The notes below the pieces were generated by a model. The model made no database searches and had not been told where the DNA came from. It worked only from the letters and a program-made list of their open reading frames with translations. Below are positions 18,494 through 35,736 of a DNA stretch of 35,736 bases, in pieces. Origin of the DNA: Spirochaetota bacterium (GTDB taxonomy: Bacteria > Spirochaetota > UBA4802 > JAFGDQ01); NCBI GenBank assembly GCA_034190085.1, contig JAXHTS010000004.1:1-35736 (forward strand), written 5' to 3'. How positions within the stretch are numbered: the stretch's first letter is position 1; each line of letters opens with the position of its first letter. A program made the translations under genes and the position numbers.

Positions 18494-18513
18494 ATCTCTA
18501 CCTCCTTGCAAAT

Positions 18514-21500
18514 TTAATTTGATAATAATTCGCCCAAGGCTTTAAAAGGATTTGATATATTCAATATATCATAATTATTAGAGCGCTCATTTTGCTGTTT
18601 GCCGGACAATATAGCAAAATCCTTCAGCAATTCTGCCAGGTCTCTCCATAGTGGTGAATCATATCGTGCAACGAGGTCTGTCCCAATAAATGCTGAGAGT
18701 TCGCTAAATACCTGTGATGAGGGATAAGGGGAATGAAGCGCTTTCAAAAAGTATTCCAGGAAGCCGTCATCATTCATCATAGCATTGCAAAGGGTGAATA
18801 GATTTGAATAGTGACCCTGAAAAACTTCCAGCAATTCAGGTAATTCCTTTGTAAGGATATCCATCAATTCTCCAGGATATTCCCAATCTCCCTTGCTGTT
18901 ATTGTATATAGTAAATACTGATCCCATTGTATGGCAAAGACCCCTTATTTCCTCATGAGTAATGTCTACACCCCTAAAAATCTTATCGATTAATCCTATT
19001 ATCTCTTCGGTTATGTTATAACTGCCAGTCGAAATTCCATTATCGCTTAGCATCTCAACAGGTGCCTCCATAATTTTATTAAAGGTATCCCAATCTTCAG
19101 GATTCGGACGATTATCAGGAAATACTGCGATTCCCTTTCCACTTGAGTCTGAACCTACCAGTTCCTCTATAAAGGTAGCTAATCTTAAATCCTCTTGACG
19201 CAATTCGTTATCATCAACATAGAACATCCAATCTGGATAACCTATATTCATATAACCTTTGGCAAGGGCTTCCCCCTTTGTGGTCTTGATTGTTGAAAAG
19301 ACCTGTTCAAGCCCGTAGAAAACCTTCCTCCTCGCACCCCAGTTAGCAAAGTTGTTATCAAAGTTATCATCATATATCGATCCCTCAGGATCGTCAAATT
19401 CAGGATCTCCAAGCTTCATAATCACTGCCAGAAGGGATGTTATCAATCTGGTTTTGGATAGTAGAGGTATTATGCCGTCACATTTCTTATAGTCACTCTC
19501 TGAAAGTATAGTCAAAAGCGTAGGATTGTCCTTTGGCATATAATAGGTTTCAATATCCGCTTCAGGATCAAGATGAACCGCTGGCTTGAGATAATTGTGC
19601 CCGTCCTCTAATCTTGGTTTCCAACAGTTATAGGGATTATTACCGCTATCCTTCTGATAATAGACCATCGGCTTAGCAAGCAATAGGAGTAGACCATCGG
19701 TTAGTGTTTTGAGAGGATATCTCTCGTTGCGTGATGTATACTCATGCAATCCTCCGACTAAAGCCACAAGAATGGGAAGAATACCGTTCCTTTTTTCCCA
19801 TACTAGTACATTATCCGGATCAGCATTATTCGAGGCCACCACCTCTTGAGTAAAGAATCCAAGATATTCGACAGGCGAAAGGTTGGCGGCAAACACATCA
19901 GGCATCACATTGCCATCACCAATAACCTCATTCATAATGAGGTCCATGTTTGCAACCCCTTCTGCTCCACCAAGGAGAATTGACATACGCGCATCGCCCA
20001 GTTCAGTAGAATTTCCATATCCTCCATTAACAAGCCACTGTCCATTGTTATCATTCTTTTTAGCCTTTGTGACTCCAATAATGCCATTTGCTTCCACCTT
20101 TAAATAAACGGCTGCCCTTCCAACCACATCCATGTCGATCCTCAAGGGTATCACAAAAACGAATTTCTTTTCAAATAAAAGCCACTGAAAATTCTTATAG
20201 ATAGCCTCTACCCATGTGTCACATTCACGGTTGTCCTCCGATTTTATCATCTCATGAACGGTTATACATCCCGCCTCATCAGTATCTACAAGCTTTTTGT
20301 CATCTGAAAGATCTACAACATTGGGGGCATAATGACGAGTTGTACCAGAGAGCCCTTCCGGAAGCTGAATCAGATAATAGTCTGTATTCCACTCATCCTT
20401 ATATTTGCAATTCTCTTCTTCTCCCTTGAAATAATAGGGGCCTTCTCCCTCCCAGCATGCACGGGCAATCCATCCCATTATCCATCTAGCAGTGTTGGAC
20501 TCCTCAATCCCATCCTTACAGTAAGCCTTGAAGGAATTCCAATCAGAAGTTCCTGAACCACCATCTGGAGAACCTGCATCCCCAACCGTCTCGCCGCTCA
20601 TTAATTGTAATGCTGGAAAGTTGGAATCCATAAAGAATTTTTTATCGCTTGTTTCATTCTCATTAAAAGCATCTGTACTTCTGTAAACATAATCTCCGTG
20701 TGGCCCACCAGGTGCAAAATGATCTAAGCATAGATTATATGCTCCTAACACATCGAGTATATAGCCGCTAGTTAAATTAAAAAGACAATCATTGAGTGTA
20801 AGGATTCCACCTGTGGACTCTCCATGACCATGACCATGATTTCCTTCTCCTGTATCTCCGCCATCCAGATATCCGAAATTACTAGCAGTTGTCAGAATAA
20901 AGATGAGTTGATCCAGATAGGAAACATTAGCCGCCATGGAATCAGTTAGTCTATCCCTTCCCTTGCCATCAACGCGTATCATTTTATAAAGCGTATCTTC
21001 AATATTAAGCGACTCCACATCAATATCAGCCCTTTTCAAATTTCTAGCAAGCAGTTCCAGAGGATAAACCCATTGCCCGTCATCGGTAATTATTGAATTA
21101 ATTCTATCCCCCCTGATGAAAAGACTTGATAAAGCTGGAAAGAATTCCTTCACAGTATTCCCAAGCTCTGCATTTATATACACATCCCCATCCTGGTTGT
21201 AATCGTTATTTGATGAGCTATAAATATCTCCACCCTGGGTAAAATAATCCTCCATATTGCATAGGAGATGTTGTAGTATGACATTTAAACCTTTGTCCTC
21301 AACTGTTGAGCCAAGAAAGTTGCCAACTTGACGGAGTAGATTATATATATCATCCCTAACCGAGTTATTCTTCAGCACATTATATAATCCGGTCAGAAGT
21401 GACTCCATTCCCCTTGTTGCATTTCCAAGTCCTGTATCCTTTTCCCCAATTCCCATTATTTTACTGCGATCTGTTATCAGCCTATCTATGCTATCAAGCC

Positions 21501-22146
21501 ACATATTTTCATTTGCCTGTAAGAATAGTTTTCCCATACCGTCGAATGTATGCTTTATAATGGTGTCAATAGACTCTCCTGCGTCCTCTCTTAGATAATT
21601 TGTCACATCTGCAATCATATCCTCAAGTTGATCGCCTTTATATCTGGCCTTAATATATCCAATCACCTTTTTCATTATTGCTACCAGATTATCCGAGAGT
21701 TCCAAATTGCTATCTGAGATGAGATCATAGAAACGAAAAAAATCGTTAGAATAATTGTTTGAGGAATCTTCATATTTTTTTACAGAGGTAAAATAGAGCT
21801 TATCCTGCTCTATTATTCTATCTACAATATTTCTTGAGTACGATATAAGATCAGTGACAGGGTGCCCTGGATTATTCATAAGATCATCAACGAGTGGAAG
21901 AATATCATTAGTCTCCTGAAGATTAGCATTAACCGCCATGGCGAGTAACGAGTTAAAACGACGCTGATCAACAGAGTTGAAGGCACTCCTTAATGCCGGA
22001 TAATTATCCAAAATATTGAATAGCTTAAATTCAGGCTCAGGATCATTCTGTTGAAAATTGCTAATATCGTCATTTGAACATGAAATAGCAAAAATCAGCA
22101 ATACTGTTAATGATGTTATCCTAAATAAACCTGTTAGACTTTTCAT
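18514..22146 (-). CDS. Giant lipoprotein, paralogue 2 (unknown function)
   Basis: 1,210 residues. The ATG at 22146 follows AGGAGG by 8 bases. The signal peptide has a good lipobox: hydrophobic LTVLLIF then AISC (Cys23), followed by SNDD. Asp after the first Ser/Asn residues does not clearly predict inner- or outer-membrane retention. The body is acidic and mostly helical with scattered cysteines that recur in the downstream paralogue (for example WIARACWEGEGPYY and a following NCKYKDEWNTDYYLI region). It has a His-rich NHGHGHGE stretch near residue 430 that could bind metal. I do not recognise the family. It is first in a two-gene minus-strand operon and diverges from the beta-barrel gene across 270 bp. 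Possible roles in surface structure or adhesion are guesses. Confidence 0.82.
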   Translation of the reverse strand: MKSLTGLFRITSLTVLLIFAISCSNDDISNFQQNDPEPEFKLFNILDNYPALRSAFNSVDQRRFNSLLAMAVNANLQETNDILPLVDDLMNNPGHPVTDLISYSRNIVDRIIEQDKLYFTSVKKYEDSSNNYSNDFFRFYDLISDSNLELSDNLVAIMKKVIGYIKARYKGDQLEDMIADVTNYLREDAGESIDTIIKHTFDGMGKLFLQANENMWLDSIDRLITDRSKIMGIGEKDTGLGNATRGMESLLTGLYNVLKNNSVRDDIYNLLRQVGNFLGSTVEDKGLNVILQHLLCNMEDYFTQGGDIYSSSNNDYNQDGDVYINAELGNTVKEFFPALSSLFIRGDRINSIITDDGQWVYPLELLARNLKRADIDVESLNIEDTLYKMIRVDGKGRDRLTDSMAANVSYLDQLIFILTTASNFGYLDGGDTGEGNHGHGHGESTGGILTLNDCLFNLTSGYILDVLGAYNLCLDHFAPGGPHGDYVYRSTDAFNENETSDKKFFMDSNFPALQLMSGETVGDAGSPDGGSGTSDWNSFKAYCKDGIEESNTARWIMGWIARACWEGEGPYYFKGEEENCKYKDEWNTDYYLIQLPEGLSGTTRHYAPNVVDLSDDKKLVDTDEAGCITVHEMIKSEDNRECDTWVEAIYKNFQWLLFEKKFVFVIPLRIDMDVVGRAAVYLKVEANGIIGVTKAKKNDNNGQWLVNGGYGNSTELGDARMSILLGGAEGVANMDLIMNEVIGDGNVMPDVFAANLSPVEYLGFFTQEVVASNNADPDNVLVWEKRNGILPILVALVGGLHEYTSRNERYPLKTLTDGLLLLLAKPMVYYQKDSGNNPYNCWKPRLEDGHNYLKPAVHLDPEADIETYYMPKDNPTLLTILSESDYKKCDGIIPLLSKTRLITSLLAVIMKLGDPEFDDPEGSIYDDNFDNNFANWGARRKVFYGLEQVFSTIKTTKGEALAKGYMNIGYPDWMFYVDDNELRQEDLRLATFIEELVGSDSSGKGIAVFPDNRPNPEDWDTFNKIMEAPVEMLSDNGISTGSYNITEEIIGLIDKIFRGVDITHEEIRGLCHTMGSVFTIYNNSKGDWEYPGELMDILTKELPELLEVFQGHYSNLFTLCNAMMNDDGFLEYFLKALHSPYPSSQVFSELSAFIGTDLVARYDSPLWRDLAELLKDFAILSGKQQNERSNNYDILNISNPFKALGELLSN

Positions 22147-23060: not shown

Positions 23061-24131
23061 TTATAGGTCCCAATATGATGACAACTGATCCTTGCCCTTC
23101 CTCGCATACTTTGAGCGGTATATCTTTAAATGTTTTACTATTTCGTCCAATAGTTCCTTTGGATACAGCTTGCCTGCCAGGTTATTCCACATCGGTTTCG
23201 TTTTCTTTTTCAAAAACTTGATTTCCTCATGGTTTAGTTTAACCTCTTTAACTCCATAATCTATCATCGCCTTAAGGCATTTCTTGTTATCAACATGAAT
23301 TTTTTTGTTTAATTTCTTTTCAATTAGAGGTATTTCTTTATCAATAGCTCTCTTGTGCTTCTCAGGGAGTTTCTCCCATGCTTTTATTGCTAATACAAAA
23401 GAGGCAGGAGAATATCTAAAGGGATATGTGTTTACGTATTTTGTAATAGTATAGAGTTGAGATCCCATCCACCATAAGGGCGGCGAAATACAAGCGTTAC
23501 ATACACCAGTTCTTATAGAAGGAACGACCTCTGGAACACCAACTGGGATGGGACTCGCACCCAGTGCCTTTATTAACTCTGCCTCAAGCTTCCCAGCATG
23601 TGTTAAAAATCTGCACTTCCGAAAGTCATCAGGGGTTCTCATCTCATATTTCGTTGAATATATCTGGTCAAAATCCTGGTCTCCCCAAAATAACATTTTA
23701 TAACCATTGTTTCTATAAATGTCGGTAAATCGTTTTATTAGCTTCTTCCTAATATATTCAATTTCATCATAATTATAAAACAGGAATGGAAGCTGCAGTA
23801 CAGCCATCTCAGGACAGGCCATTAGAACGCCGCCTACTGATAATATACAACCATGAAGTTGGCCGATCCTCATTTTGGTTATATAATCTTCCTCATCTCC
23901 CATTACCCCACCCCAATACATATCTATAGTGACCTCGCCATTAGTAATTTCTTCAATTATCGTTAGTAAATGATTTTTTAAAAAGTCAGAATAACCAGCA
24001 TCGGGCGCAATTGTTGCCATTTTCCATACATATTTTGCGTTCTTCTTAGCTATAGCTCCTGAAAATCCTATCACTCCAATAGAAAAACCCAATAATACTA
24101 TAAATATAATATATAATCTAATTTTCTTCAT
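23061..24131 (-). CDS. TRAP transporter periplasmic binding protein, DctP family (copy 1)
   Basis: 356 residues; ATG at 24131 with GGAGG 6 bases upstream. A signal peptide (IIFIVLLGFSIGVIGFSGAIA) is followed by KYVWKMATIAPDAG, the first strand of a DctP solute-binding fold. Family hallmarks include YWGGVMGDEEDYITKMRIGQ, LQLPFLF and FRKCRFLTHAG; the Arg in the last motif is at the position of the carboxylate-binding Arg of TRAP binding proteins, so an organic acid ligand is likely. This is the last gene of the minus-strand array, 192 bp after copy 2, and is its closest relative by eye. It lacks the membrane partners DctQ and DctM, which are nowhere in the window. Convergent with the beta-barrel gene. 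Confidence 0.88.
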   Translation of the reverse strand: MKKIRLYIIFIVLLGFSIGVIGFSGAIAKKNAKYVWKMATIAPDAGYSDFLKNHLLTIIEEITNGEVTIDMYWGGVMGDEEDYITKMRIGQLHGCILSVGGVLMACPEMAVLQLPFLFYNYDEIEYIRKKLIKRFTDIYRNNGYKMLFWGDQDFDQIYSTKYEMRTPDDFRKCRFLTHAGKLEAELIKALGASPIPVGVPEVVPSIRTGVCNACISPPLWWMGSQLYTITKYVNTYPFRYSPASFVLAIKAWEKLPEKHKRAIDKEIPLIEKKLNKKIHVDNKKCLKAMIDYGVKEVKLNHEEIKFLKKKTKPMWNNLAGKLYPKELLDEIVKHLKIYRSKYARKGKDQLSSYWDL

Positions 24132-24323
24132 AATTTTCCTCCAATTAATCCCTGCATATTTAGCACGTTCATCAATTCAGTACAATAATATATCACTTAT
24201 ATACTCGTCAGGTTATATTCTTCAAAGTGGAGAATGGAGTACTCTGTGTTACATGTGTTTATAAGTGACATGCTCTCCCAAATTCTCTAATTTAATCAGG
24301 TCATCATTATTCATAAGAGCGAT

Positions 24324-25400
24324 CTATAACTCCCAATATGATAATCCTTGATCTTTGTCCTTCTTGGCATATTTTGAACGGTATATTTTTAAATGATACA
24401 ATATCTCATCCAAGAGTTTTTTGGGATACAGCTTGCCAGCCAGTTTATCCCACATCGGTTTCGTTTTCTTCTTAATATATTCGATCTCCTCATTGTTCAT
24501 TTTGACCTCTTTCACTCCATAATCTATCATCGCCTTAAGACATTTTCTATTGATCTCATGAATTTTTTTATTCAGGTTTTTTTCCAATTGAGGTAATTCC
24601 TTATTAATGGCATTCCTGTGCTTCTTAGGCAATGCATCCCATGATTTTATTGCAACAACTAGTGTAGCTGGTGAATATCTAAATGGATAGGCATTTACAT
24701 ACTTAGTTATTGTATATAGCTGTGATCCCAGCCACCATAGGGCAGGGGATATAGCCGTGTCACATACACCAGCCCGCACAGAAGGCACAACCTCAGGCAC
24801 ACCAACTGGTATTGGACTACCTCCAAGGGCTTTTATTAACTCCTGTTCCAGAAGACCGGCATGTGTTAAAAACCTGCATTTCCTGAATTCTTCAGCAGTT
24901 TTCATCTCATATTTTGTTGAATATATCTGGTCAAAATCCTGATCTCCCCAACCTATTAATTTGTAACCATTTTTCCTGTATATATCATTAAATCTTTTTC
25001 CCAACTTTTTTCTAATATAAGCAATTTCCGCATAATTATTAAAGAGGAATGGAAGTTGCAATACACCCATTTCTGGACAGGCCATAAGAACACCGCCCAC
25101 TGATAATACACAACCATGAAGTTGGCCGATCCTCATTTTGGTAATATAATCCTCCTCATCTCCCATTATCCCTCCCCAATACATATCAACAGTAACCTCG
25201 TTGTTAGTAACCTTTTCGAATTTAGTTACTAATGAATCTCTCAAAAATTCTGAAAGGTAGGCTGCATCTGGCGCGACTGTTGCCATCTTCCATACATATT
25301 TTGCATTCTTCTTTTTCTTTGCCTCAGATAGTCCAATCATCCCACATAAAAGACACAATAGTATACAAATTGAAACATAAAATTTATTACTTCTTCTCAT
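24324..25400 (-). CDS. TRAP transporter periplasmic binding protein, DctP family (copy 2)
   Basis: 358 residues from the ATG at 25400, which has GGAGG 7 bases upstream; a longer frame from 25448 adds 16 unlikely residues before the signal peptide. The signal peptide (YVSICILLCLLCGMIGLSEA) precedes KYVWKMATVAPDAAYLSEF. It keeps the YWGGIMGDEEDYITKMRIGQ and FRKCRFLTHAG motifs, including the presumed carboxylate-binding Arg. It follows GRE1 across a 329-bp spacer with a strong hairpin. Sequence and order suggest that copies 1 and 2 are a local tandem duplication. Ligand unknown; an aromatic or aliphatic acid related to the GRE substrate or product is a context-based guess. Confidence 0.88.
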   Translation of the reverse strand: MRRSNKFYVSICILLCLLCGMIGLSEAKKKKNAKYVWKMATVAPDAAYLSEFLRDSLVTKFEKVTNNEVTVDMYWGGIMGDEEDYITKMRIGQLHGCVLSVGGVLMACPEMGVLQLPFLFNNYAEIAYIRKKLGKRFNDIYRKNGYKLIGWGDQDFDQIYSTKYEMKTAEEFRKCRFLTHAGLLEQELIKALGGSPIPVGVPEVVPSVRAGVCDTAISPALWWLGSQLYTITKYVNAYPFRYSPATLVVAIKSWDALPKKHRNAINKELPQLEKNLNKKIHEINRKCLKAMIDYGVKEVKMNNEEIEYIKKKTKPMWDKLAGKLYPKKLLDEILYHLKIYRSKYAKKDKDQGLSYWEL

Positions 25401-25729
25401 AAATATTCCTCCAAATATAATAAACTTGGAAATCCTTGATAAAACCAATTGGGGAGAAATAAATATTCACTATGCTTAATACAATAATCAATAATAATTA
25501 TACTTCATATTAAACTAAGTTCGTTATTTACTCATGTAGTTATATATAAAATTTTTCATCCTAAATATATAAAATCCCCATTAGCCTTCATGATGGATGG
25601 TAAATTCCTATTTTGATTTCCTCTTCTCTCATAGCTTATAATTGTTCCTCCTTGTCTCCTCTCATAGAGGTGAGAGGAGACAAAAAGTTAAAAATAGTCA
25701 ATTAAATAAATTGGGGAAAAATTGTTAAA
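25401..25729. other. 329-bp spacer between GRE1 and DctP copy 2
   Basis: AT-rich, no coding frame. It contains the strong hairpin at 25652-25683 close to the GRE1 stop. Nothing else recognisable. Confidence 0.5.
25652..25683 (-). repeat. Strong hairpin in the GRE1-DctP2 spacer
   Basis: Perfect 13-bp arms (25652-25664 and 25671-25683; core GTCTCCTCTCA / TGAGAGGAGAC) around a 6-base loop. It starts about 46 bp after the GRE1 stop in transcription order. No T-run follows in the direction of transcription, so a role in mRNA processing, stability or partial termination is more likely than full termination. Comparable hairpins sit in the other two GRE-DctP spacers. Confidence 0.65.
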
Positions 25730-28216
25730 CTACATTTCCTGAACATTACGCGCTATTATCGCATCCTGTGTTATCTTATTCATCTCCACAAAATGTGCGC
25801 TATATCCAGCAATTCTTACCAGCAACTCGCTATACTTCTCTGGATCCTTTTGGGCAGCATATAGCGTCTCATTATCAACCATGTTAAACTGAACATGACC
25901 AATACCCAGTTCATGCCAGGTCTTCATATAATCCCGCCATAATCTGAAGCCCTTCTCCCCCTGCAACTGAGCTGGCGACAGCCTTTGATTTAAGAGCGTT
26001 GCCCTGCATGAACCAATATGATCCAGCTTACCTACAGATTTTAGCACTGCAGTTGGCCCCTTTTTATCTAGACCAGCGCCTGGAGAACATCCTCCATCAT
26101 ATATTGGATCTCCCATTCTTCGTCCGTTTGGCAGCGCACTAATCATTGAGGCCGCAGCTATATGAGTATTTACACTCTCAGGTAGGGTAGGCCATGGTGA
26201 ACCATTGATATCACGCGCTGACCATGACATCTTGCCAAGATCATCATACATTTTCACCCATACCTGGTCTACATAATCATCATCATTTCCCCATTTAGGA
26301 GCTTTTACAAAGTCCATTCTCATATTTTCATAACCCACCCAATTTGCATCCAGCGCTGTTACTAATTCAGCCATTGTATACTTTTTCTCATCATACACGA
26401 GCTTCTTTACTGCAGCCAGGCAATCACCGGTGTCACCAAAAGCAAAAAGTGTAAACCATAAACTACTCCTTTCCTTGCATCTAGCGCTATTATCACCGGA
26501 CTCTATACATCGCTCATATAGAGATGAGGTCATGGGTTTAGGAAATAATTTAGCCTCTGTCTCCCTGTTTTTATGCTCCATTGTTGTGGCAGTCTTAAAA
26601 CCGAACTTCATCTGCTCATACCAGGCATTATAGAAATCATCAAAGGTCTCAAAAGTGGCTGGATTACCTGTCTTGATGCCAGTCTGCATCCCAGTCATGG
26701 GATCTAGTCCATCATGGAGAGCCAGAACTATGCCCATGGATCCACCACCGATTGCAGCTGATGGGTATCTTAAGGCTGGGGCTCCCATTTTCGTATCAGG
26801 AGCTGGTGCCATGCAAGCCTGATGAACCCAACGCCTTGCCTCCTTCAACGGATGGCCGAACCACTGCATAATATTTGGAATCAATACATCATCATTCCTT
26901 AAGGACGGATAACCCAGACCATGACGGATACAATCAAATACCCTTTTAAGCGTTTCTGTTCGGGCCTGAGAGTGATATCGAAAACTAAAGGTGGGATCGC
27001 TCACCCTGCTTATCATGGCTGCATCAAGATAACAGTCAGTTAAATCGTTGCATGCATCATGTCCTTTCTCATCAACTCCTCCAATAGTCCATACATAGGG
27101 GCCCGGACTTCCTTGTAGAACTTCACGACCAGCCCTGAGCCATGATTTTCCAATAGAATAAGCAGTAATCATCCACTCAGAGCAATAATCTATTACATCT
27201 TCCCTTGATAGGTTTTTTTCCTCAAGAACATCCTTTTTGTAGAATTCCCAATGCCAGAAATCTTGTCTCCATGGCCATGCAGCATTATGCCACTCTAATC
27301 TGTAGGCTATCTGCACAAAGTGATCAAATTGGATTGCCTCCCATATATGCTCTGGTGGTTGTGCGGGTACCTTGTCGCATGTTTCGCTTATCTGTAGAAG
27401 TTCCTGTCTTCTATCAGGATCAGTCTCAAAATTATCTGCGATTACTTTAGCCAATTGACTAAATCTCCTTGCATATCTGATCGTAGCCTCCAGACATATC
27501 TTCATAGCTCTCCAGTTACTCATCTTCTCCATATATGAAGTCTGTTCCTCTGCGGTGCTAGCCTCACGAACTGCCTTCTCAGCTTCAGCCATATTTTCAT
27601 CAATGCTTGCTATTATTGAATCAAATCCTTGATACATCCAATCAGGTTGCGGTGTGACATAATCAAATCCCATCATATCTCTTCCAGGTTGAACAAAACT
27701 CGGTGTCAGCGCGATTACCTTTTCTCTACGATTAAAATATTGCTTACATATATCCTCATAAGTTCTACCCTTCCAGAACTCGACCATCTCTTTAACCTCT
27801 TCCAGATCCTCCTCATCAATAATGTCTGTTCTATCATTATATAAATCATCATTTATCATAGTCGAGGCTGTGGGTATCCAGGTGACGAGATGTGGAGCGC
27901 CGCCGGGATAACCCTGAATCCGTGAATGATCAGTAATAAAAATGGGCATATTATCTAGCACAGAAGCCAGTGCTCTAGCTCTAGTCAGCATAGCTGGTTC
28001 TGAGGGAGGTGCCTCTTTAAATATCTTTGTTTGCCAACGAATATTATCAAGGCATAATTTAATCCCAGGTAGCCATGCTGATCCTTTGGTCGCCTTAGAC
28101 CATACTGCTTTTCTGAGATAATTAATCCTTGGTGATCTTTTTTTCTCCGCCCACCACCAATATTCACGAGCATCATATAATTCTTTTTCACTCTTCTCTT
28201 GTACTTCAGTTGACAT
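25730..28216 (-). CDS. Glycyl radical enzyme, X-succinate synthase-like large subunit (GRE1)
   Basis: 828 residues from the ATG at 28216 (GGAGG 5 bases upstream; MEEDM of the longer frame is excluded). The pyruvate-formate-lyase-like fold ends in the glycyl radical motif VRIAGYSAHFVEM with Gly804, Gln817 and the IIAR tail. The active-site loop is HQACMAPAP with Cys468. CM(A/S)P is typical of fumarate-adding synthases, whereas diol dehydratase- and decarboxylase-type GREs have GCVE-like loops. Cys-to-Gly spacing is 336, identical to benzylsuccinate synthase (493/829), and Arg483 matches its fumarate-binding Arg508 in spacing. Such enzymes add a hydrocarbon or methyl-aromatic to fumarate in anaerobes. 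Its own small subunit upstream is reduced to a relic (28339-28365). No activase is in the window. The substrate cannot be read from sequence; a non-hydrocarbon substrate remains possible. Confidence 0.85.
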   Translation of the reverse strand: MSTEVQEKSEKELYDAREYWWWAEKKRSPRINYLRKAVWSKATKGSAWLPGIKLCLDNIRWQTKIFKEAPPSEPAMLTRARALASVLDNMPIFITDHSRIQGYPGGAPHLVTWIPTASTMINDDLYNDRTDIIDEEDLEEVKEMVEFWKGRTYEDICKQYFNRREKVIALTPSFVQPGRDMMGFDYVTPQPDWMYQGFDSIIASIDENMAEAEKAVREASTAEEQTSYMEKMSNWRAMKICLEATIRYARRFSQLAKVIADNFETDPDRRQELLQISETCDKVPAQPPEHIWEAIQFDHFVQIAYRLEWHNAAWPWRQDFWHWEFYKKDVLEEKNLSREDVIDYCSEWMITAYSIGKSWLRAGREVLQGSPGPYVWTIGGVDEKGHDACNDLTDCYLDAAMISRVSDPTFSFRYHSQARTETLKRVFDCIRHGLGYPSLRNDDVLIPNIMQWFGHPLKEARRWVHQACMAPAPDTKMGAPALRYPSAAIGGGSMGIVLALHDGLDPMTGMQTGIKTGNPATFETFDDFYNAWYEQMKFGFKTATTMEHKNRETEAKLFPKPMTSSLYERCIESGDNSARCKERSSLWFTLFAFGDTGDCLAAVKKLVYDEKKYTMAELVTALDANWVGYENMRMDFVKAPKWGNDDDYVDQVWVKMYDDLGKMSWSARDINGSPWPTLPESVNTHIAAASMISALPNGRRMGDPIYDGGCSPGAGLDKKGPTAVLKSVGKLDHIGSCRATLLNQRLSPAQLQGEKGFRLWRDYMKTWHELGIGHVQFNMVDNETLYAAQKDPEKYSELLVRIAGYSAHFVEMNKITQDAIIARNVQEM

Positions 28217-28338
28217 ATCTTCCTCCATAAATGAATTAATTATATTTTATTATTATGGTAATAAGATTTTCTTATATCATATTAAAACCTTGCTTTTCTT
28301 TATATCTACTATTCATACTAATAGCCAAATTATAATGA

Positions 28339-28365
28339 TTACGGCCATGCGCCATATCTTGGCAT
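28339..28365 (-). pseudogene. Relic of a four-cysteine small-subunit gene upstream of GRE1
   Basis: A perfect AAGGAGG with normal spacing precedes an ATG at 28365 that encodes only MPRYGAWP before a stop. The intact small subunits begin MPRCGDCTNF and MARCGDCRNF. The first three codons (ATG CCA AGA) equal those of the 29761-29994 gene; the two first cysteines are Tyr and Trp here, and the frame then stops repeatedly. The position directly before a GRE is the same as for the intact copy before GRE2. Best read as a decayed small subunit. A short leader peptide is an alternative. The rest of the 290-bp gap (28217-28506) shows nothing else. Confidence 0.45.
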
Positions 28366-28506
28366 CTCTATCACCTCCTTCTATGTTTATAAAAAATTTA
28401 CATCCATGATTATTGATATTTTTAATAATTATTATATTTGTTTAAAATATGCAAAAAACCTTGTTATTACATGCAGATAAATAAAGAAATACCATTATCC
28501 GTAATC

Positions 28507-29550
28507 TTAACCCTTCTTAGTATGTTTGTCTCGATATATCCTTAAATGATATTTTATCTCCTCCAAAAGTTTCTTTGGATACAATTTACCTGCCAAATTA
28601 TCCCACATAGGCTTAGTCCTCTCCCTAAAAACATCAATCTCCTCAGGAGTCATCTTTACCTCGATTAGTCCATAATTTATCATCGCCCTGAGACAATCTC
28701 TATTCATTTTGTGTGCCATATTGTTCATGAATTTCTCTAGTCTTGGTAGTTCTCTATCAATAGCCACCCTATACTTATCCGGAAGCCTGCTCCATGCTTT
28801 ATTTGAAACTACTAAAGTAGCTGGTGAATATCTAAATGGATAGGGGTTTACATATTTTGTCATTGTATAGAGCTGGGAACCCATCCACCACAATGCTGGA
28901 GAGATAACCGAATTGCAAACACCTGCCCTAAAAGAGGGCACAACCTCAGGCACACCCACCGGTATGGGACTGCCTCCAAGGGCTTTAATTAACTCAATCT
29001 CAATTGTACCAGCATGTGTTAAAAATCTGCTCCTTTTAAAATCTTCAGGTTTTCTCATCTCATACTTCGTTGAATATATCTGATCAAAATCCTGATCTAT
29101 CCATATCAACATCTTCAAACCGCTGTTCTTATAAATTTCAACAAATCTTGAGTACAACTTTCTCCTAATATACTCAACCTCATTATAATTATTAAATAGA
29201 AAGGGAAGTTGTACAACACCCATCTCAGGGCAGGCCATTAATACACCACCAACTGATAGAGAACATCCTTGAAGTTGATCAATTCTCATCTTTGTAATGT
29301 AATCCTCCTCATCCCCCATAATACCGCCCCAGTAAATATCCATAGTAAGTTCGCCATTAGTCGCTTTTTCGAAGCATGCAATTAAATCATTTTTCATATA
29401 TTCTGAAAGAAAAGCCGCATCTGGCATAACTGTACCAAATTTCCATAAATACTTTGTCTTCTTCCTCGCTATAACATCAGTTAAATCTATAGATCCAATG
29501 ATGAAACATAAAATAACAATATCTATAATAATAATTTTCCCCCTCTTCAT
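28507..29550 (-). CDS. TRAP transporter periplasmic binding protein, DctP family (copy 3)
   Basis: 347 residues; ATG at 29550 with AGGAGG 8 bases upstream. Signal peptide IIIIDIVILCFIIGSIDLTDVIA, then KYLWKFGTVMPDAAFLSEY. It keeps YWGGIMGDEEDYITKMRIDQ and a variant FKRSRFLTHAG (Cys replaced by Ser, Arg kept). It is the only DctP in the array that follows a small-subunit gene directly (210-bp spacer) with no GRE between, which suggests a lost GRE gene. It shares MRIDQLQ and the GTVMPDA-type start with copy 5, so these two may form a subgroup. Ligand unknown. Confidence 0.87.
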   Translation of the reverse strand: MKRGKIIIIDIVILCFIIGSIDLTDVIARKKTKYLWKFGTVMPDAAFLSEYMKNDLIACFEKATNGELTMDIYWGGIMGDEEDYITKMRIDQLQGCSLSVGGVLMACPEMGVVQLPFLFNNYNEVEYIRRKLYSRFVEIYKNSGLKMLIWIDQDFDQIYSTKYEMRKPEDFKRSRFLTHAGTIEIELIKALGGSPIPVGVPEVVPSFRAGVCNSVISPALWWMGSQLYTMTKYVNPYPFRYSPATLVVSNKAWSRLPDKYRVAIDRELPRLEKFMNNMAHKMNRDCLRAMINYGLIEVKMTPEEIDVFRERTKPMWDNLAGKLYPKKLLEEIKYHLRIYRDKHTKKG

Positions 29551-29679
29551 ATCGCATACCTCCTGTATTTATTTATAAATGATCAATCATAATAGAGGGC
29601 AATAGGGAGGGGACAATAGGGGAATAGAAATATCTGCTGTACCTAATGAGGTAATATATCTCATCAAATAGATAATAAT

Positions 29680-29751
29680 TTATTTATTGAAAACCTTGAA
29701 TTTTTCTTCCTCAATATCCAACTCCCAGCCCTCAATCAAGAAATTGATCAT
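29680..29751 (-). other. Possible 23-codon reading frame between small subunit and DctP copy 3
   Basis: ATG at 29751 opens a frame reading MINFLIEGWELDIEEEKFK and ends at TAA 29680. It is in frame with the preceding small-subunit gene, three codons after its stop. There is no ribosome site, so it may be only a relic of a longer C-terminus or chance. No similarity recognised. Confidence 0.15.
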
Positions 29752-29760
29752 AAGCGATAT

Positions 29761-29994
29761 TTACTTTTCATCAAATCCCCGTCCCATGCGCAGATTCGGG
29801 CTATTAGTAAATTCGGTTACATTAGTCCTTATTCGTTCCTGTTCTTCAAATTTAGGACAGTCTTCAATATCTGCATACATGTTAACCTCCTTACCAAGCC
29901 CATCCTCATCTAAAATCCCCTTGCACATTCCAATACTAGCAGCTGAATTTGCCACTTGGGGTATAAAATTTGTACAATCACCACATCTTGGCAT
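29761..29994 (-). CDS. Four-cysteine Fe-S small subunit of a glycyl radical enzyme (copy A)
   Basis: 77 residues; ATG at 29994 with AAGGAGG 7 bases upstream. Cysteines at 4, 7, 24 and 46 (RCGDCTNF ... GMCKG ... DCPKF) form a CxxC-x16-C-x21-C pattern like the HiPIP-like [4Fe-4S] small subunits of benzylsuccinate synthase (BssB/BssC) and hydroxyphenylacetate decarboxylase. In those enzymes the small subunits bind the large subunit and influence its activation. It lies 27 bp after DctP copy 4 but is followed by DctP copy 3, not by a GRE, so its partner is unclear: GRE1, whose own small-subunit gene appears lost, is a good candidate. Nearly identical to the copy at 33824-34057. Confidence 0.75.
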   Translation of the reverse strand: MPRCGDCTNFIPQVANSAASIGMCKGILDEDGLGKEVNMYADIEDCPKFEEQERIRTNVTEFTNSPNLRMGRGFDEK

Positions 29995-30021
29995 CTTAAA
30001 ACCTCCTTATACAATTAATTA

Positions 30022-31065
30022 CTATCCCTTCTTAGCATGCGTTGAGCGATATATATTTAAATGATATAAAATCTCATCCAAAAGTTCTTTGGGATATAAT
30101 TTGCCAGCTAAATTACTCCATAAAGGCATTGTCCTCTTCTTAAAATCCTCGATCTCTTCAGGTGTCATTTTTACCTCCCTAACACCATAATCAATCATCG
30201 CTTTAAGACACTTTCTGTTAATATCATGCGCTTCTTTATTTGCAATCTTCTCCAAATCTGGTAATATTTTATTAATAGACTTTCTATGCTTCTTGGGCAG
30301 TTTCACCCATACCTTAGATGAAATTACCAATGTCGCAGGAGAATACCTAAATGGATATGGATTTACATATTTAGTTATTGTATAGAGTTGAGTGCCCATC
30401 CACCACAAAGCCGGAGATATAGCCACATTACAAACACCAGCTCTCATTGATGGAACAACCTCAGGCACTCCTACTGGTATTGGACTCGCACCAAGCGCCT
30501 TTATTAACTCTTGTTCAAGAAGACCAGCATGAGTTAAAAACCTACACTTCTTAAATTCATCAGCTTTTTTCATCTCATATTTCGTTGAATATATCTGATC
30601 AAAATCCTGATCAATCCAGGCGACTAATTTATACCCATTTTTCTTATATATGTTGTTAAATCTCTTACCCAACTTTTTCCTTATATAATCCACTTCCTTA
30701 TAATTATTAAAGAGGAAAGGAAGCTGCAGCACACCCATCTCAGGACAGGCCATTAGGACACCACCTACTGATAATATACATCCCTGTAGCTGCCCGATTC
30801 TCATCTTTGTAATATAATCTTCCTCATCCCCCATTATTCCTCCCCAGTACATATCAATAGTAACCTCTCCATTGGTTACCTTTTCAAAGCGATCAACCAA
30901 ATATTTTCTCATTAAATCAGAAAGATATGCTGCATCAGGCGCAACCGTCGCCATTTTTAGCAGATACTTTGGCTTTTTTTTTGCTAAAGCGCCCTGGAAT
31001 CCAATCAATGAAATAGTGAATCCCAATAAAACCAGATATGTAATACAAAATCTACTTTTCTTCAT
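30022..31065 (-). CDS. TRAP transporter periplasmic binding protein, DctP family (copy 4)
   Basis: 347 residues; ATG at 31065 with GGAGG 7 bases upstream. Signal peptide ITYLVLLGFTISLIGFQGALA, then KYLLKMATVAPDAAYLSDL. Contains YWGGIMGDEEDYITKMRIGQ, LQLPFLFNNY and FKKCRFLTHAG with the presumed carboxylate-binding Arg. It follows GRE2 across a 208-bp spacer that has a hairpin, so the order GRE-hairpin-DctP matches GRE1-DctP2 and GRE3-DctP5. By eye it is closest to copy 2, which occupies the equivalent position after GRE1. No DctQ/DctM genes are nearby. Confidence 0.88.
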   Translation of the reverse strand: MKKSRFCITYLVLLGFTISLIGFQGALAKKKPKYLLKMATVAPDAAYLSDLMRKYLVDRFEKVTNGEVTIDMYWGGIMGDEEDYITKMRIGQLQGCILSVGGVLMACPEMGVLQLPFLFNNYKEVDYIRKKLGKRFNNIYKKNGYKLVAWIDQDFDQIYSTKYEMKKADEFKKCRFLTHAGLLEQELIKALGASPIPVGVPEVVPSMRAGVCNVAISPALWWMGTQLYTITKYVNPYPFRYSPATLVISSKVWVKLPKKHRKSINKILPDLEKIANKEAHDINRKCLKAMIDYGVREVKMTPEEIEDFKKRTMPLWSNLAGKLYPKELLDEILYHLNIYRSTHAKKG

Positions 31066-31226
31066 ACAATCCCCTCCAATTGTTCCCTTCTGTATTGTGT
31101 AGCTATAATATATGATTGTATTTCTGTCTTATGCATTCATACATCTGTTTTAGATATATAATGTGCAACTAAAGATTATACTCAAGATTAAGAAGAGTAC
31201 CCTTTGGTTTCCCTATTGTTTTAGTC

Positions 31227-31262
31227 TTTCCCTATCTACTAAATACAAGGAAGAGAGGGAAA
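31227..31262 (-). repeat. Hairpin in the GRE2-DctP4 spacer
   Basis: Arms 31227-31237 (TTTCCCTATCT) and 31252-31262 (AGAGAGGGAAA) pair over 11 bp with one mismatch, loop 14 bases. It begins within about 12 bp of the GRE2 stop in transcription order. A T-run is found only on the opposite strand (31263-31267), so it is not an intrinsic terminator for these genes. Confidence 0.5.
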
Positions 31263-31273
31263 TTTTTATAAAG

Positions 31274-33763
31274 CTACATCTCCTGAACATTGCGGGCTAT
31301 TATTGCATCCTGTGTCATCTTATTCATCTCAACAAAATGCGCGCTATATCCGGCAATCCTAACCAGCAACTCGCTATACTTCTCAGGATCCTTCTGGGCA
31401 GCGTATAGCGTCTCATTGTCAACCATATTAAATTGAACATGACCAATGCCCAATTCATGCCAGGTTTTTATGTAATCCCGCCATAACCTGAATCCCTTCT
31501 CCCCTTGTAGCTGGGAAGGTGATAGCCTTTGATTCAAGAGCGTGGCTCTGCATGAGCCAATATGATCCAGCTTGCCTACAGATTTCAGCACAGCAGTAGG
31601 TCCCTTCTTATCAAGACCAGGACCAGGTGAGCATCCGCCATCATATATTGGATCCCCCAATCTTCTTCCGTTGGGTAAGGCTCCGATCTGATTGGCAAGG
31701 GCTATATGAGTGTTAACACTCTCAGGCAGGGTTGGCCATGGAGAGCCACAGATATCCCGCACAGACCATGACATTTTTCCTAGGTCCTCATACATCCTAA
31801 CCCATATCTGATCCACATAGTCATCATCATTGCCCCACTTTGGCGCTTTTACAAAGTCCATCCTCATATCCTCATAACCAACCCAGTTCGCTTGTAATGC
31901 TGCTTTTAACTCACCCATGGTATACTTCTTTTCTTCATATACAAGCTTCTTAACCGCTGCTAAAGAGTCACCAGTATCCCCAAAGGCAAAGAGGGTAAAC
32001 CATAAACTACTCCGTTCCTTAGATCGTGCGCTATTCTCGCCTGTCTCTATACAGCGTTCATAAAGGGATGATGTCATCGGTTTTGGATAATATTTTGCTT
32101 CTACCTCCCTATTCTTATGCTCCAACGTTGTGGATCTCTTAAAACCCGTTTTAAGTTGCTCATACCATGCATTATAAAAATCATCAAAGGTATCATATTT
32201 ATCGCAATCCCCTGTCTTAGCGCCTATCTGCATCCCAGTGACAACATCAATACCATCAAAAATTGCTAAAGATACTGCCTTGGATCCTGCTGGTAAGGAG
32301 GCTTGGGGATATCTTAATGCCGGCGCCCCCATCTTTGTATCCGGAGCAGGAGCCATGCAGGCCTGATGTACCCAACGTCTAGCATCCCTTAATGGATGAC
32401 CAAACCATTGTATGAGATTTGGGATAAGCACATCATCATTTCTTATGGATGGATAACCCAGTCCATGACGAATACAATCAAACACCTTTCTTAGGGTTTC
32501 TATACGGGCCTTAGAGTGATATCGAAAACTAAAGGTGGGATCGCTTACCCTGCTTATCATGGCTGCGTCAAGATAACAATCTGTGAGATCGTTGCACGCA
32601 TCATGCCCCTCCTCATCCATTCCACCGATAGTCCATACGTAAGGCCCCGGACTACCCTGCAAAACCTCTCTGCCCACCCTGAGCCATGACTTGCCTATCG
32701 TATAACCAGCGATCATCCATTCAGCGCAATATTCAACCACCTCATCCCTTGTAAGGTTCTTTTCCTGAATCACGTCCTTCTGGTAAAAGGGCCAGTGCCA
32801 ATAGTCCTGACGCCATGGCCATGCAGCGTTATGCCACTCTAACCTGTAGGCTATCTGCACAAAATGATCAAACTGTATGGCCTCCCATATGTGCTCCGGC
32901 GGACGTGCAGGCACCTTCTCGCAAGTCTCGCTTATACGTAGGAGTTCCTGCCTTCTGTCCGGATCCGTTTCAAAGTTATCCGCTATTATCTTAGCCAATT
33001 GGCTAAACCGCCTGGCGTACCTTATCGTTGCCTCCAGACAAATCTTCATTGCTCTCCAATTAGTTATCTTTTCCATATATGAGATCTGTTCCTCTGCGGT
33101 GCTTGCTTCACGCACCGCTTTCTCCGCATCAGACATCTTCTCATCAATTGACTCTATTATTGAGTCAAAACCCTGATACATCCACTCAGGTTGAGGGGTT
33201 ACATAGTCAAAAGCAGAAATGTCTCTTCCACCACCCCCGAAATCTGCCGCCATACGGGACATTACTTTTTCCTTACGGCTAAAATTTTGTAAACATACAT
33301 CCTCGTAGGTCCTTCCCTTCCAGAACTCCACCATCTCTTTCGCTTCCTCAATATCCTCATCATCAATAATATCAGTTCTATCGTTTATTAGATCATCATT
33401 GATCATTGATGAGGCTGTTGGTATCCAGGTAATAAGATGTGGAGCGCCTCCTGGATATCCCTGAATCCTTGAATAATCTGTGATAAAAATGGGCATATTG
33501 TCTAAGACTTCAGCCAAGGCTCTTGCTCTGGCTAGCATCATAGGTTCTGATGGAGGTGCCTCTTTGAATATCTTAGTATGGTAACGGATGTTATCAAGAC
33601 ATAACTTGACTCCCGGCAGCCATGCAGAACCCTTGGTCGCTTTAGACCAGACAGCTTTTCTCAAATAGTTGAGCCTTGGGGATCTCTTCTTCTCAGCCCA
33701 CCACCAGTATTCTCGGGCATCGTAAAGTTCTTTCTCGCTCTTCTCCTTTACACTCTGTACCAT
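31274..33763 (-). CDS. Glycyl radical enzyme, X-succinate synthase-like large subunit (GRE2)
   Basis: 829 residues from the ATG at 33763; GGGGAGG lies 7 bases before it but only 1 base before the in-frame ATG at 33769, so the inner start is preferred. Active-site loop HQACMAPAP with Cys469, Arg 15 residues later, and radical motif VRIAGYSAHFVEM with Gly805; Cys-Gly spacing is 336 as in benzylsuccinate synthase. It is very similar to GRE1 throughout, except around residues 168-184 (SRMAADFGGGGRDIS against ALTPSFVQPGRDMM) and 487-520 (after the active-site loop). It follows its small subunit by 60 bp, forming the complete unit small subunit - GRE - DctP. Fumarate addition to a hydrocarbon-like substrate is inferred; a radical-SAM activase must be encoded elsewhere. 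Confidence 0.86.
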   Translation of the reverse strand: MVQSVKEKSEKELYDAREYWWWAEKKRSPRLNYLRKAVWSKATKGSAWLPGVKLCLDNIRYHTKIFKEAPPSEPMMLARARALAEVLDNMPIFITDYSRIQGYPGGAPHLITWIPTASSMINDDLINDRTDIIDDEDIEEAKEMVEFWKGRTYEDVCLQNFSRKEKVMSRMAADFGGGGRDISAFDYVTPQPEWMYQGFDSIIESIDEKMSDAEKAVREASTAEEQISYMEKITNWRAMKICLEATIRYARRFSQLAKIIADNFETDPDRRQELLRISETCEKVPARPPEHIWEAIQFDHFVQIAYRLEWHNAAWPWRQDYWHWPFYQKDVIQEKNLTRDEVVEYCAEWMIAGYTIGKSWLRVGREVLQGSPGPYVWTIGGMDEEGHDACNDLTDCYLDAAMISRVSDPTFSFRYHSKARIETLRKVFDCIRHGLGYPSIRNDDVLIPNLIQWFGHPLRDARRWVHQACMAPAPDTKMGAPALRYPQASLPAGSKAVSLAIFDGIDVVTGMQIGAKTGDCDKYDTFDDFYNAWYEQLKTGFKRSTTLEHKNREVEAKYYPKPMTSSLYERCIETGENSARSKERSSLWFTLFAFGDTGDSLAAVKKLVYEEKKYTMGELKAALQANWVGYEDMRMDFVKAPKWGNDDDYVDQIWVRMYEDLGKMSWSVRDICGSPWPTLPESVNTHIALANQIGALPNGRRLGDPIYDGGCSPGPGLDKKGPTAVLKSVGKLDHIGSCRATLLNQRLSPSQLQGEKGFRLWRDYIKTWHELGIGHVQFNMVDNETLYAAQKDPEKYSELLVRIAGYSAHFVEMNKMTQDAIIARNVQEM

Positions 33764-33823
33764 GCTCATACCTCCCCTTTTTATTTCTATCTCAAAATAC
33801 GATATTGCTGATTACACTAAAAC

Positions 33824-34057
33824 TTACTTTTCATCAAACCCCCTAGCCATACGTAGATTTTGACTGGTACCAAATTCAGAAACATTAGTCCTTATTCGGT
33901 CCTGCTCCTCAAATTTGGGACATCCATCAGTGTCTGCATATAGGTTAACCTCTTTACCCAATCCATCCTCATCTAAAATCCCTTTACACATTCCCATACT
34001 AGCTGCAGAATTTAGCAGTGGGGGAATAAAATTTCTACAATCACCACATCTTGCCAT
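33824..34057 (-). CDS. Four-cysteine Fe-S small subunit of a glycyl radical enzyme (copy B)
   Basis: 77 residues; ATG at 34057 with AAGGAGG 7 bases upstream. Cysteines 4, 7, 24 and 46 (ARCGDCRNF, GMCKG, GCPKF) as in copy A. It lies 60 bp upstream of GRE2 in the same direction, matching the place of small subunits in benzylsuccinate synthase operons and supporting a complex with GRE2. Most differences from copy A are in residues 11-20 and 55-70; the cysteine environment and the GILDEDGLGKEVN stretch are conserved. A stand-alone ferredoxin-like role is less likely given the position. Confidence 0.78.
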   Translation of the reverse strand: MARCGDCRNFIPPLLNSAASMGMCKGILDEDGLGKEVNLYADTDGCPKFEEQDRIRTNVSEFGTSQNLRMARGFDEK

Positions 34058-34155
34058 TTCCCTACCTCCTTCAATGTTATCTTAAATAAATTATTTAATA
34101 CTAATAACTCCATTGTATTGTTGCTTTATACAAGATTATATTGCATTTATATATT

Positions 34156-35196
34156 TTATCCCTTAGTAACATGCCTAGCGCGATATATCCTTAAATGATA
34201 TACTATCTCATCCAAAAGCTTCCTTGGGTATAATTTACCAGCTAACTTATCCCATAAAGGCATTGTCCTTTTTCTGAATTCCTCAATCTCCTCTGAAGTC
34301 AACTTGACCTCCTTTATCCCATAATCTATCATTGCTCTTAGACACTTTTTGTTCATATCTTTCATCATATCGTTGAACTTTTTCCCCATCATTGGCAATT
34401 CTCTATTAACAGCCTTCCTGTGTTTTGCAGGGAGACTCTTCCAAGCCTTCATTGATACTACCATTGAGGCCGGGGAATATCTTAAAGGGTATGTATTAAC
34501 ATATTTTGTTATTGTATAGAGTTGAGCTCCCATCCACCAGACAGCAGGAGAAATACAAGCATTACATACACCGGTTCTCATTGAAGGAACAACCTCTGGC
34601 ACACCTACAGGTATTGGACTTGCTCCAAGCGCCTTAATTAACTCCTCCTCAAGTTTGCCAGCATGTGTTAAAAATCTACACTTCTTAAAGTCCTCATGAT
34701 TCCTCATCTCAAATCTTGTTGAATATATCTGATCAAAATCCTGATCAAACCATACTAACATTTTGTAACCATTTTTTTTATAAATATCAGTAAATAATGT
34801 TCCCAATTTATTCCTAATATAACCGACCTCCTCAAAATCATTAAACAGAAAAGGAAGTTGCAGTACACCCATCTCAGGGCAAGCCATAAGAACACCACCC
34901 ACTGATAAACCTGCAGCCTGAAGTTGATCAATCCTCATCTTGGCTATATAATCCTCCTCATCTCCCATTGTGCCGCCCCAATATAGATCCATCGTGAGTT
35001 CACCATTAGTCACCCTCTCTATGCTAGCTAATATTTCATCTCTAAAATATTCCGAAGCAAAAGCTGCATCTGGCATGACTAACCCCATTTTCCATACATA
35101 TTTTGCATCCTTTTTCGCAATAGCATTAGTGAGTAGTATTACACTTACAAAGAAGCTTAATAAAACAAAGACTGAAATATATATATTCCTCCTCAT
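34156..35196 (-). CDS. TRAP transporter periplasmic binding protein, DctP family (copy 5)
   Basis: 346 residues from the ATG at 35196, which starts MRRNIYISVFVLLSFF, a normal signal peptide, with a GGGAGG site 11 bases upstream. The longer frame to 35364 would add 56 residues that run across a hairpin, so it is rejected. After the signal peptide comes KYVWKMGLVMPDAAF, then YWGGTMGDEEDYIAKMRIDQ and FKKCRFLTHAG with the presumed carboxylate-binding Arg. It follows GRE3 across a 217-bp spacer and precedes small subunit copy B by 98 bp. The MRIDQLQ variant links it to copy 3. Ligand unknown. Confidence 0.87.
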   Translation of the reverse strand: MRRNIYISVFVLLSFFVSVILLTNAIAKKDAKYVWKMGLVMPDAAFASEYFRDEILASIERVTNGELTMDLYWGGTMGDEEDYIAKMRIDQLQAAGLSVGGVLMACPEMGVLQLPFLFNDFEEVGYIRNKLGTLFTDIYKKNGYKMLVWFDQDFDQIYSTRFEMRNHEDFKKCRFLTHAGKLEEELIKALGASPIPVGVPEVVPSMRTGVCNACISPAVWWMGAQLYTITKYVNTYPLRYSPASMVVSMKAWKSLPAKHRKAVNRELPMMGKKFNDMMKDMNKKCLRAMIDYGIKEVKLTSEEIEEFRKRTMPLWDKLAGKLYPRKLLDEIVYHLRIYRARHVTKG

Positions 35197-35327
35197 CTTA
35201 GAACATACCTCCCAATTGTATATATTTCTATTATAGATCAATACTTCACAATATAACTTATCTCCTGTACTACGTAATTCCACTTTACTAATATCCAGTC
35301 CCAAGATAATAAAAGAGTTAATGCCTT

Positions 35328-35367
35328 CATATGTTTCCTCTTCCCTCAGGGGTAGAGGAAACATATG
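35328..35367 (-). repeat. Strong hairpin in the GRE3-DctP5 spacer
   Basis: Perfect 14-bp arms (35328-35341 CATATGTTTCCTCT; 35354-35367) enclose a further CCC/GGG pairing, giving a near-continuous stem of 17 bp. It lies about 46 bp after the GRE3 stop, the same distance as the hairpin after GRE1. No T-run follows in the direction of transcription. Confidence 0.65.
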
Positions 35368-35413
35368 TATAATTAATGGTTATAAAATGGGATAGGAGAT
35401 AAGTTATTGTAGG

Positions 35414-35736
35414 CTACATCTCCTGAACATTGCGGGCTATTATCGCATCCTGTGTCATCTTATTCATCTCAACAAAATGCGCGCTATATCCGGCAATCCT
35501 AACCAGCAATTCGCTATATTTCTCAGGATCCTTCTGGGCAGCGTATAGCGTCTCATTATCAACCATATTAAACTGCACATGACCAATGCCCAATTCATGC
35601 CAGGTCTTCATGTAGTCTCTCCATAACCTGAAACCCTTCTCTCCCTGCAGTTGAGCTGGAGAAAGCCTCTGGTTCAATAGTGTCGCCCTGCATGAACCAA
35701 CATGATCCAATTTGCCAACAGATTTTAATACAGCAG
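35414..35736 (-). CDS. Glycyl radical enzyme, X-succinate synthase-like (GRE3), C-terminal part only
   Basis: The frame is open to the right edge, so only the last 107 residues are seen; the apparent TTG start at 35710 is internal (GKLDHVGSC). The fragment has the radical motif VRIAGYSAHFVEM, a Gln eight residues later and IIARNVQEM. It differs from GRE1 and GRE2 at only a few residues. At DNA level the last ~220 bp differ from GRE2 at about a dozen positions by eye, many fewer than from GRE1. The active-site Cys is outside the window. It heads the visible part of the array, followed by a hairpin and DctP copy 5. Confidence 0.85.
   Translation of the reverse strand, partial: AVLKSVGKLDHVGSCRATLLNQRLSPAQLQGEKGFRLWRDYMKTWHELGIGHVQFNMVDNETLYAAQKDPEKYSELLVRIAGYSAHFVEMNKMTQDAIIARNVQEM

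Follow-up and report, generated by a model that had tools for sequence, protein, structure and literature searches.

Organization of the array

The window analysed here, a stretch of 35,736 bp, is the complete contig C4 of a 4.27 Mb spirochaete metagenome-assembled genome (MAG) comprising 86 contigs, with 96% completeness and 1.9% contamination. From position 23061 to the contig end it carries an array of genes for glycyl radical enzymes (GREs), small Cys-rich proteins and DctP, the solute-binding protein (SBP) of tripartite ATP-independent periplasmic (TRAP) transporters. Pfam and NCBIfam searches bore out the content described in a first-pass annotation of the sequence, namely two intact GREs, a third truncated at the contig end, a pair of four-Cys proteins of 77 aa each and five DctPs, all on the minus strand. 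Read in the direction of transcription, the order is GRE (contig end)–DctP–small subunit–GRE–DctP–small subunit–DctP–GRE–DctP–DctP.

The cut GRE (35414–35736) is an open-ended reading frame for the C-terminal 106 aa and matched the window GRE with 223 bits in phmmer. The DctP next to it (34156–35364; NCBIfam TRAP_S1, 5e-58) has a listed start too far upstream, homology being found only from ~35184, and its true start is probably near 35184. The first 77-aa protein (33824–34057) shows a CX2CXnCXnC pattern and resembles the gamma subunit MasC, its best, weak match in the Protein Data Bank (9o8u_C, E 0.63). It is followed by a GRE of 831 aa (31274–33769; PF02901, 2e-120; PF01228) and by a DctP of 347 aa with a signal peptide-like N terminus (30022–31065; PF03480, 9.7e-43), for which an AlphaFold model (pLDDT 90.5) gave a TRAP SBP fold. 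The second gamma (MasC)-like small protein (29761–29994) is 79% identical to the first and matched the NCBIfam small subunit of 4-hydroxyphenylacetate decarboxylase at 7.5e-4, under the cut-off of that model. The remaining genes encode a DctP of 347 aa (28507–29550; TRAP_S1, 9.5e-56), a GRE of 832 aa (25730–28228; PF02901, 5e-115; PF01228) that is 85% identical to the one at 31274–33769, a DctP whose start codon is probably downstream of the listed TTG (24324–25448; PF03480, 4.4e-38) and a DctP of 356 aa (23061–24131; TRAP_S1, 4e-61).

The repeating unit had been read as small subunit–GRE–DctP, but gap lengths indicate that it is better read, in transcription order, as DctP–small subunit–GRE. 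Within the array, genes lie closest where a DctP precedes a small subunit (gaps of 99 and 28 bp) and where a small subunit precedes a GRE (55 bp), and the tight units have gaps of 99/55 bp in the window and 110/61 bp on contig C45, where the same arrangement (GRE–DctP–small subunit–GRE start) is found. There are exceptions to this regularity within the window, as a small subunit precedes one DctP and one GRE has no small subunit directly before it. A relic small-subunit gene had also been claimed in the array. The stretch 28229–28506 contains an ATGCCAAGATATGG start resembling that of the small-subunit genes, yet only the first bases match and the local alignment was no better than with shuffled DNA, so that this candidate was dismissed. 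A scan for promoters and terminators gave no excess above shuffled sequence. As contig C4 is exactly 35,736 bp long, the rightward extension proposed in the first-pass annotation for finding an activase and the DctQM permease is impossible on this contig; neither was found in the window, while activase genes were located on contig C35 and DctQM on contig C66.

Assignment of the GREs to the X-succinate synthases

Compared with solved proteins, the GRE at 31274–33769 matched MasD, the alpha subunit of (1-methylalkyl)succinate synthase (MASS; 9o8u), with 826 bits (E 3e-247), TutD of benzylsuccinate synthase (BSS) with 496 bits (1.6e-147) and the choline lyase CutC with 344 bits (1e-101). All GREs of the genome fell inside the AssA/MasD clade in a 122-row tree, in which TutD was the sister and nearest neighbour and GREs resembling pyruvate formate-lyase (PFL) or CutC lay outside, and a 53-row mixture-model tree agreed with this placement. 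Both trees resolved three groups private to this genome: type 1, found in the window and on contigs C45 and C76, type 2a with 8 and type 2b with 20 copies. The type-1 copy of C76 is terminal and broken, with in-frame stops.

The motifs of the active-site Cys and the glycyl-radical Gly were present in 28/28 intact copies. In the GRE at 31274–33769, alignment places them at Cys471 (codon 32357–32359, minus strand, as are the following; Cys477 of MASS, Cys493 of BSS) and Gly807 (31349–31351; PF01228), and Arg486 (32312–32314) is the counterpart of the fumarate-binding Arg of the two synthases with solved structures (Arg492 in MASS, Arg508 in BSS; PMC12358834). In the alignment this Arg is kept in the GREs of the genome and missing from the outgroup GREs. 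Together with Trp590, Thr592 and Phe594, the Cys and the fumarate Arg are essentially invariant among intact copies, and Glu690, Thr598 and Phe600 of the MASS type are matched as well. The tree and the Cys, Gly and Arg residues thus show that the fumarate-adding type proposed in the first-pass annotation was right and can be narrowed to the alkylsuccinate branch. As judged from sequence, the window GREs are alpha subunits of X-succinate (alkylsuccinate) synthases (XSS), with the corresponding catalysis predicted. A decarboxylase or dehydratase identity was rejected: all NCBIfam equivalog matches lay far under the cut-off, and the GREs did not group with these enzymes in the tree.

Position 185, occupied by the channel-gate Trp in MASS, is Gly, Pro or Ala in type 1 and Trp in all type-2 copies. 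As this Trp is also missing from type-1 relatives and some other AssA proteins, it is a feature of MASS and not one that defines the family. Lack of the gate would fit another or bulkier substrate, and the type-1 enzymes, perhaps others too, might conceivably act on hydrocarbons other than n-alkanes, for instance iso- and cycloalkanes, terpenes or other bulky compounds. Such a range, which we consider only tentatively, is in keeping with the origin of a relative from the same deep branch, Peptococcaceae SCADC, in a culture that depleted 2-methylpentane and methylcyclopentane along with n-alkanes (PMC4161757), but this culture evidence is not enzyme-specific.

Amplification of alpha genes, accessory genes and host

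The genome contains 33 PFL-like matches, 28 of which, on the contigs examined, are intact, full-length and equipped with the Cys and Gly motifs; the remaining ~5 alpha genes are frameshifted, pseudogenized or cut by contig ends. Thirteen type-2 copies lie in head-to-tail runs on a single 121 kb contig and share 74–91% DNA identity. The 32 other genomes holding alkylsuccinate-type GREs have one to six each, apart from CSMAG_2994, a Deltaproteobacteria MAG of 2.8 Mb in which 11 matches represent a second, smaller expansion. Among type-1 GRE pairs, synonymous divergence (dS) was 1.6–2.6 and the ratio of nonsynonymous to synonymous divergence (dN/dS) 0.04–0.05, and three type-2 pairs gave dN/dS values of 0.05–0.08, all to be read in the light of mostly saturated synonymous sites. 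Where tested, the GRE copies are thus old and kept by strong purifying selection. Homogenization of the type-1 C termini by gene conversion was discarded, since the last windows show persistently high synonymous divergence, and the conserved C terminus therefore looks like an outcome of selection.

The flagellar sheath protein family FlaA (PF04620), which is not known outside the spirochaetes, was detected in 19/19 members of the order including this genome and in 0/14 control genomes, and flaA genes are present on the GRE contigs C52 and C45. ValS encoded on GRE contig C64 showed 68–72% identity to its counterparts within the family and order and at most 55% to those of other genomes. On the basis of the FlaA pattern and ValS identity, we assign the host to the spirochaetes and regard the GREs as its own. 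Enzymes of this kind were found in this genome only among 393 spirochaete genomes sampled (0/392 others). The nearest relatives of the GREs occur in named Deltaproteobacteria, Syntrophaceae and Dehalococcoidia MAGs; CSMAG_2901, for example, carries a type-1 gene (74% identity) as well as a tandem pair of type-2 genes (79–81%). These data are most simply read as horizontal gene acquisition with subsequent local amplification. An assembly or binning artefact, in which repeats were chimerized or Desulfobacterota contigs were mis-binned into a spirochaete MAG, could be suspected from the several contigs that end within GRE genes, the identical fragments on C79 and C56 and the 1.9% contamination. 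It was rejected as highly improbable, because 13 GREs at 74–91% identity reside on one 121 kb contig that also carries a spirochaete ValS, because flaA accompanies GREs on two contigs and because GC content is alike on GRE contigs and other contigs. An incomplete literature search found no publication joining Spirochaetota with alkylsuccinate synthase.

In the 25 intact type-2 copies the fumarate and radical residues are constant, apart from a single deviation at each of 598 and 690. Variability among them peaks in the 20-residue window that corresponds to MasD 360–379 and contains the equivalent of BSS Phe385, which lines the toluene site (PMC12358834), and variation is also seen at MasD 192, located where the alkane cavity ends distally, and at 488. 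Such a distribution is suggestive of substrate diversification among the copies. Were the expansion instead a matter of gene dosage or regulatory specialization, all copies would act on the same alkanes, for which the invariant fumarate and radical residues and the strongly purifying selection overall could be cited. We regard this as unlikely, as the copies are old, differ by up to ~25% in DNA and concentrate their variability in MasD 360–379 and at 192 and 488.

Accessory genes were found both beside and away from the alpha genes. Small proteins next to type-2 genes are homologues of the beta subunit MasB (9o8u_B, 4e-21), five of them on the contigs examined, and a homologue of the rubredoxin-like delta subunit MasE (6.6e-10) is encoded upstream of the type-1 GRE of C45. 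On the minus strand of contig C35 (43145–45826), a compact operon comprises a rubredoxin-like delta, two activating enzymes (AE1 and AE2) and a 54-aa MasC-like gamma, in that order and with no alpha gene. The two activases are AssD-like, being 61% and 42% identical to the radical-SAM gene that adjoins AssA in Desulfatibacillum alkenivorans. This operon apparently serves as activation module for all GREs, and the gene counts suggest that it is shared by the ~30 alphas. A 402-aa radical SAM protein beside the C79 array was ruled out as the activase, since it is a member of a separate Fer4–Fer2–radical-SAM family and C35 carries the AssD-like genes. Members of that family, of 402–414 aa and distinct from AssD, are encoded at C79:9974–11182 (the copy scanned with Pfam), C35:110678–111904 and C22:32252–33478, and another (L057:6191–7435) adjoins a type-1 GRE in a Dehalococcoidia MAG. 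At the C45 type-1 locus (L036:4715–5563), two small proteins with weak matches to PNPOx-like flavoproteins separate the small subunits from the GRE; a small protein in the same position in another genome (G061:C90:10574–11038) resembles the C45 pair by eye.

The DctP receptors and the proposed system

Eighteen of the 22–23 DctPs of the genome group with those of CSMAG_2901 and Smithella sp. D17, apart from generic DctPs, and two genome-private clades were distinguished, one of six type-1-linked DctPs and one of 11 others. At the threshold used the subfamily was detected in 0/58 relatives searched, so that it follows the same phyletic pattern as the GREs. The canonical carboxylate-Arg column, located by alignment to 4p8b and with reference to Arg147 of SiaP, holds Arg in 6/6 type-1-linked DctPs and Lys in 11/11 others examined. 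Foldseek comparison of the AlphaFold model showed a normal TRAP receptor (TM 0.8–0.9 to TRAP SBPs), and the type-1-linked pairs computed gave dN/dS values of 0.09–0.19, indicating purifying selection.

The first-pass annotation had suggested that each unit couples its own receptor to its enzyme. Such coupling was not borne out: the window has no DctQM, and the genome has five DctM for 23 DctP. The only permease found beside DctPs of the clade is part of a cluster at C66:26313–33510 (DctP–DctP–DctP–MmgE/PrpD–DctQ–DctM). The clade is enriched beside alpha genes, yet about half of its 18 members are not beside a GRE. Three of 11 type-2-linked DctPs have a GRE of the same orientation within ~310 bp, for which chance was estimated at ~3e-6 under a simple model that ignores shared duplication.

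A serious rival, possible although less probable than a functional partnership, is that the DctPs are passengers functionally unrelated to the enzymes, which would have arrived beside an XSS gene on the transferred DNA and have multiplied with it through recombination. Their frequent location away from GREs would agree with this, and so would the type-1 GREs of CSMAG_2901 and DeMMO5_3, which have no adjoining DctP. On the other hand, the window DctPs are under purifying selection, the two DctP radiations parallel the two GRE types with a clean Arg/Lys split, the close spacing of the three type-2-linked DctPs exceeds chance within the limits of the model, the order DctP–small subunit–GRE recurs in Smithella D17, and TRAP genes occur in operons of JS1 Atribacteria. 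Alternatively, the DctPs could act in sensing or chemotaxis instead of transport, as the first-pass annotation had also considered. The excess of 18 clade DctPs over the single adjoining DctQM and the very large sensor-kinase-like reading frames of the window contig would suit such a role, which we nevertheless consider quite improbable, because the units contain no interspersed sensor gene, C66 provides a matching DctQM, and DctQM-like genes accompany clade DctPs in both CSMAG_2901 and Smithella D17.

The account that we favour, as rather probable, is that an anaerobic spirochaete gained an alkylsuccinate (X-succinate) synthase toolkit by horizontal transfer and that the catalytic alpha was then amplified in three separate radiations to ~30 genes. 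The window would represent the type-1 branch with a gamma-like small subunit of its own. The alphas, all of which retain the common radical and fumarate machinery, would draw on shared parts, namely the C35 operon (two activases, a MasC-like gamma and a MasE-like delta), the C45 delta, five MasB and the type-1 small subunits, whereas the copies would probably differ in the hydrocarbon added to fumarate, making the organism a broad-range oil degrader. For the DctPs, which were co-acquired and co-amplified, the most likely role is that of periplasmic receptors binding carboxylates linked to hydrocarbons, that is, fumarate or succinate or acids of the alkylsuccinate type, and in our reading these many receptors would feed one shared DctQM permease, that of C66. 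Much more tentatively, the whole might operate as a modular system in which one activation module and a few betas serve ~30 interchangeable alphas of differing specificity, and ~18 co-evolving receptors match the resulting carboxylates to a single TRAP permease.

Several observations weigh against the favoured account. In the comparison across genomes that the first-pass annotation had proposed, DctP was next to the GRE in only 1/79 XSS loci from other genomes, that of Smithella D17 (DctP–small subunit–GRE); 77 of these loci had a full-length GRE, and 46 of the 77 had at least 1.5 kb on both sides. The DctP subfamily is also expanded in D. alkenivorans (14) and DeMMO6_21 (21), mostly away from GREs. 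The named pocket positions MasD 185 and 600 are invariant in type 2, and as pocket positions are thus not uniformly variable, substrate diversification is no more than suggested. Assignment of the 77-aa proteins as gamma is weak, being drawn from the motif and low-scoring matches, and the sharing of activases and subunits is deduced from gene counts in a MAG that may miss genes. Regarding the expanded DctPs of D. alkenivorans and DeMMO6_21 (loci L143–L175), most were seen without DctQM, and in both genomes one DctP (L153, L173) is flanked by a homologous pair of large genes that look RND/MMPL-like by eye.

The enzyme family and the presence of TRAP genes beside fumarate-addition enzymes (FAEs) are already known; as far as our searches show, novelty lies in the paralogue number, the alpha-free accessory operon, the occurrence in a spirochaete and the parallel radiation of receptors. 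MASS (Mas) of Azoarcus HxN1 and AssA of Desulfatibacillum and Smithella are alike in alpha sequence, Cys/Gly, fumarate Arg and the Glu690/Thr598/Phe600 equivalents, and their MasB-, MasC- and MasE-like small subunits and AssD-type activases have counterparts in this genome. They differ in that ~30 alphas instead of one to six are found here, the genes for activases and gamma are separate from those for alpha, the gate Trp185 is missing in type 1, DctPs are interleaved and the host is a spirochaete. BSS (TutD/BssA) is likewise a fumarate-adding GRE with shared Cys and Arg, but forms a more distant sister lineage with Gln707 where Glu is found here. The pairing of GRE and DctP, which had appeared new in the first-pass annotation, is preceded by the JS1 Atribacteria, in which DctP, DctQ and DctM are inside all FAE operons and were interpreted as serving succinate/fumarate transport (PMC6776118); what stands as new is the repetition of permease-free units and the scale of the expansion. 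In JS1 the TRAP genes form a DctP–DctQ–DctM set and faeA, whose top match is bssA, forms a deeply separated cluster of its own, in contrast to the alkylsuccinate-type enzymes with permease-free DctPs described here. The ass locus of Smithella sp. D17 (L091/L179) shares with the window the order of a DctP, of the same subfamily, followed by small subunit and GRE, but consists of a single unit with a MasB-type small subunit and a GRE of the mainstream clade.

The occurrence of spirochaetes at oil-polluted sites has been attributed to fermentation of necromass (PMC6052044), whereas this genome points to a spirochaete able to activate hydrocarbons itself, probably of many kinds. Where the organism is present, assA copy counts would be badly off as a proxy of degrader abundance. 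Following the first alkane-type structure of 2025, a natural set of ~30 paralogues in which the radical chemistry is constant and the pocket varies would lend itself to studying what determines hydrocarbon specificity in X-succinate synthases. The co-amplified DctP clade, in turn, points to an unrecognized periplasmic partner of fumarate addition.

Outside the array, the window carries a plus-strand reading frame of 2286 aa (5160–12020) with the appearance, by eye, of a sensor with kinase, ATPase, GAF, PAS and histidine-kinase parts, followed by a receiver–histidine-kinase hybrid (12064–14481, plus strand). Two adjoining giant lipoprotein-like reading frames on the minus strand (14567–18511 and 18514–22146), one of which was scanned and had no Pfam match, encode proteins of 1314 and 1210 aa that are 37% identical.

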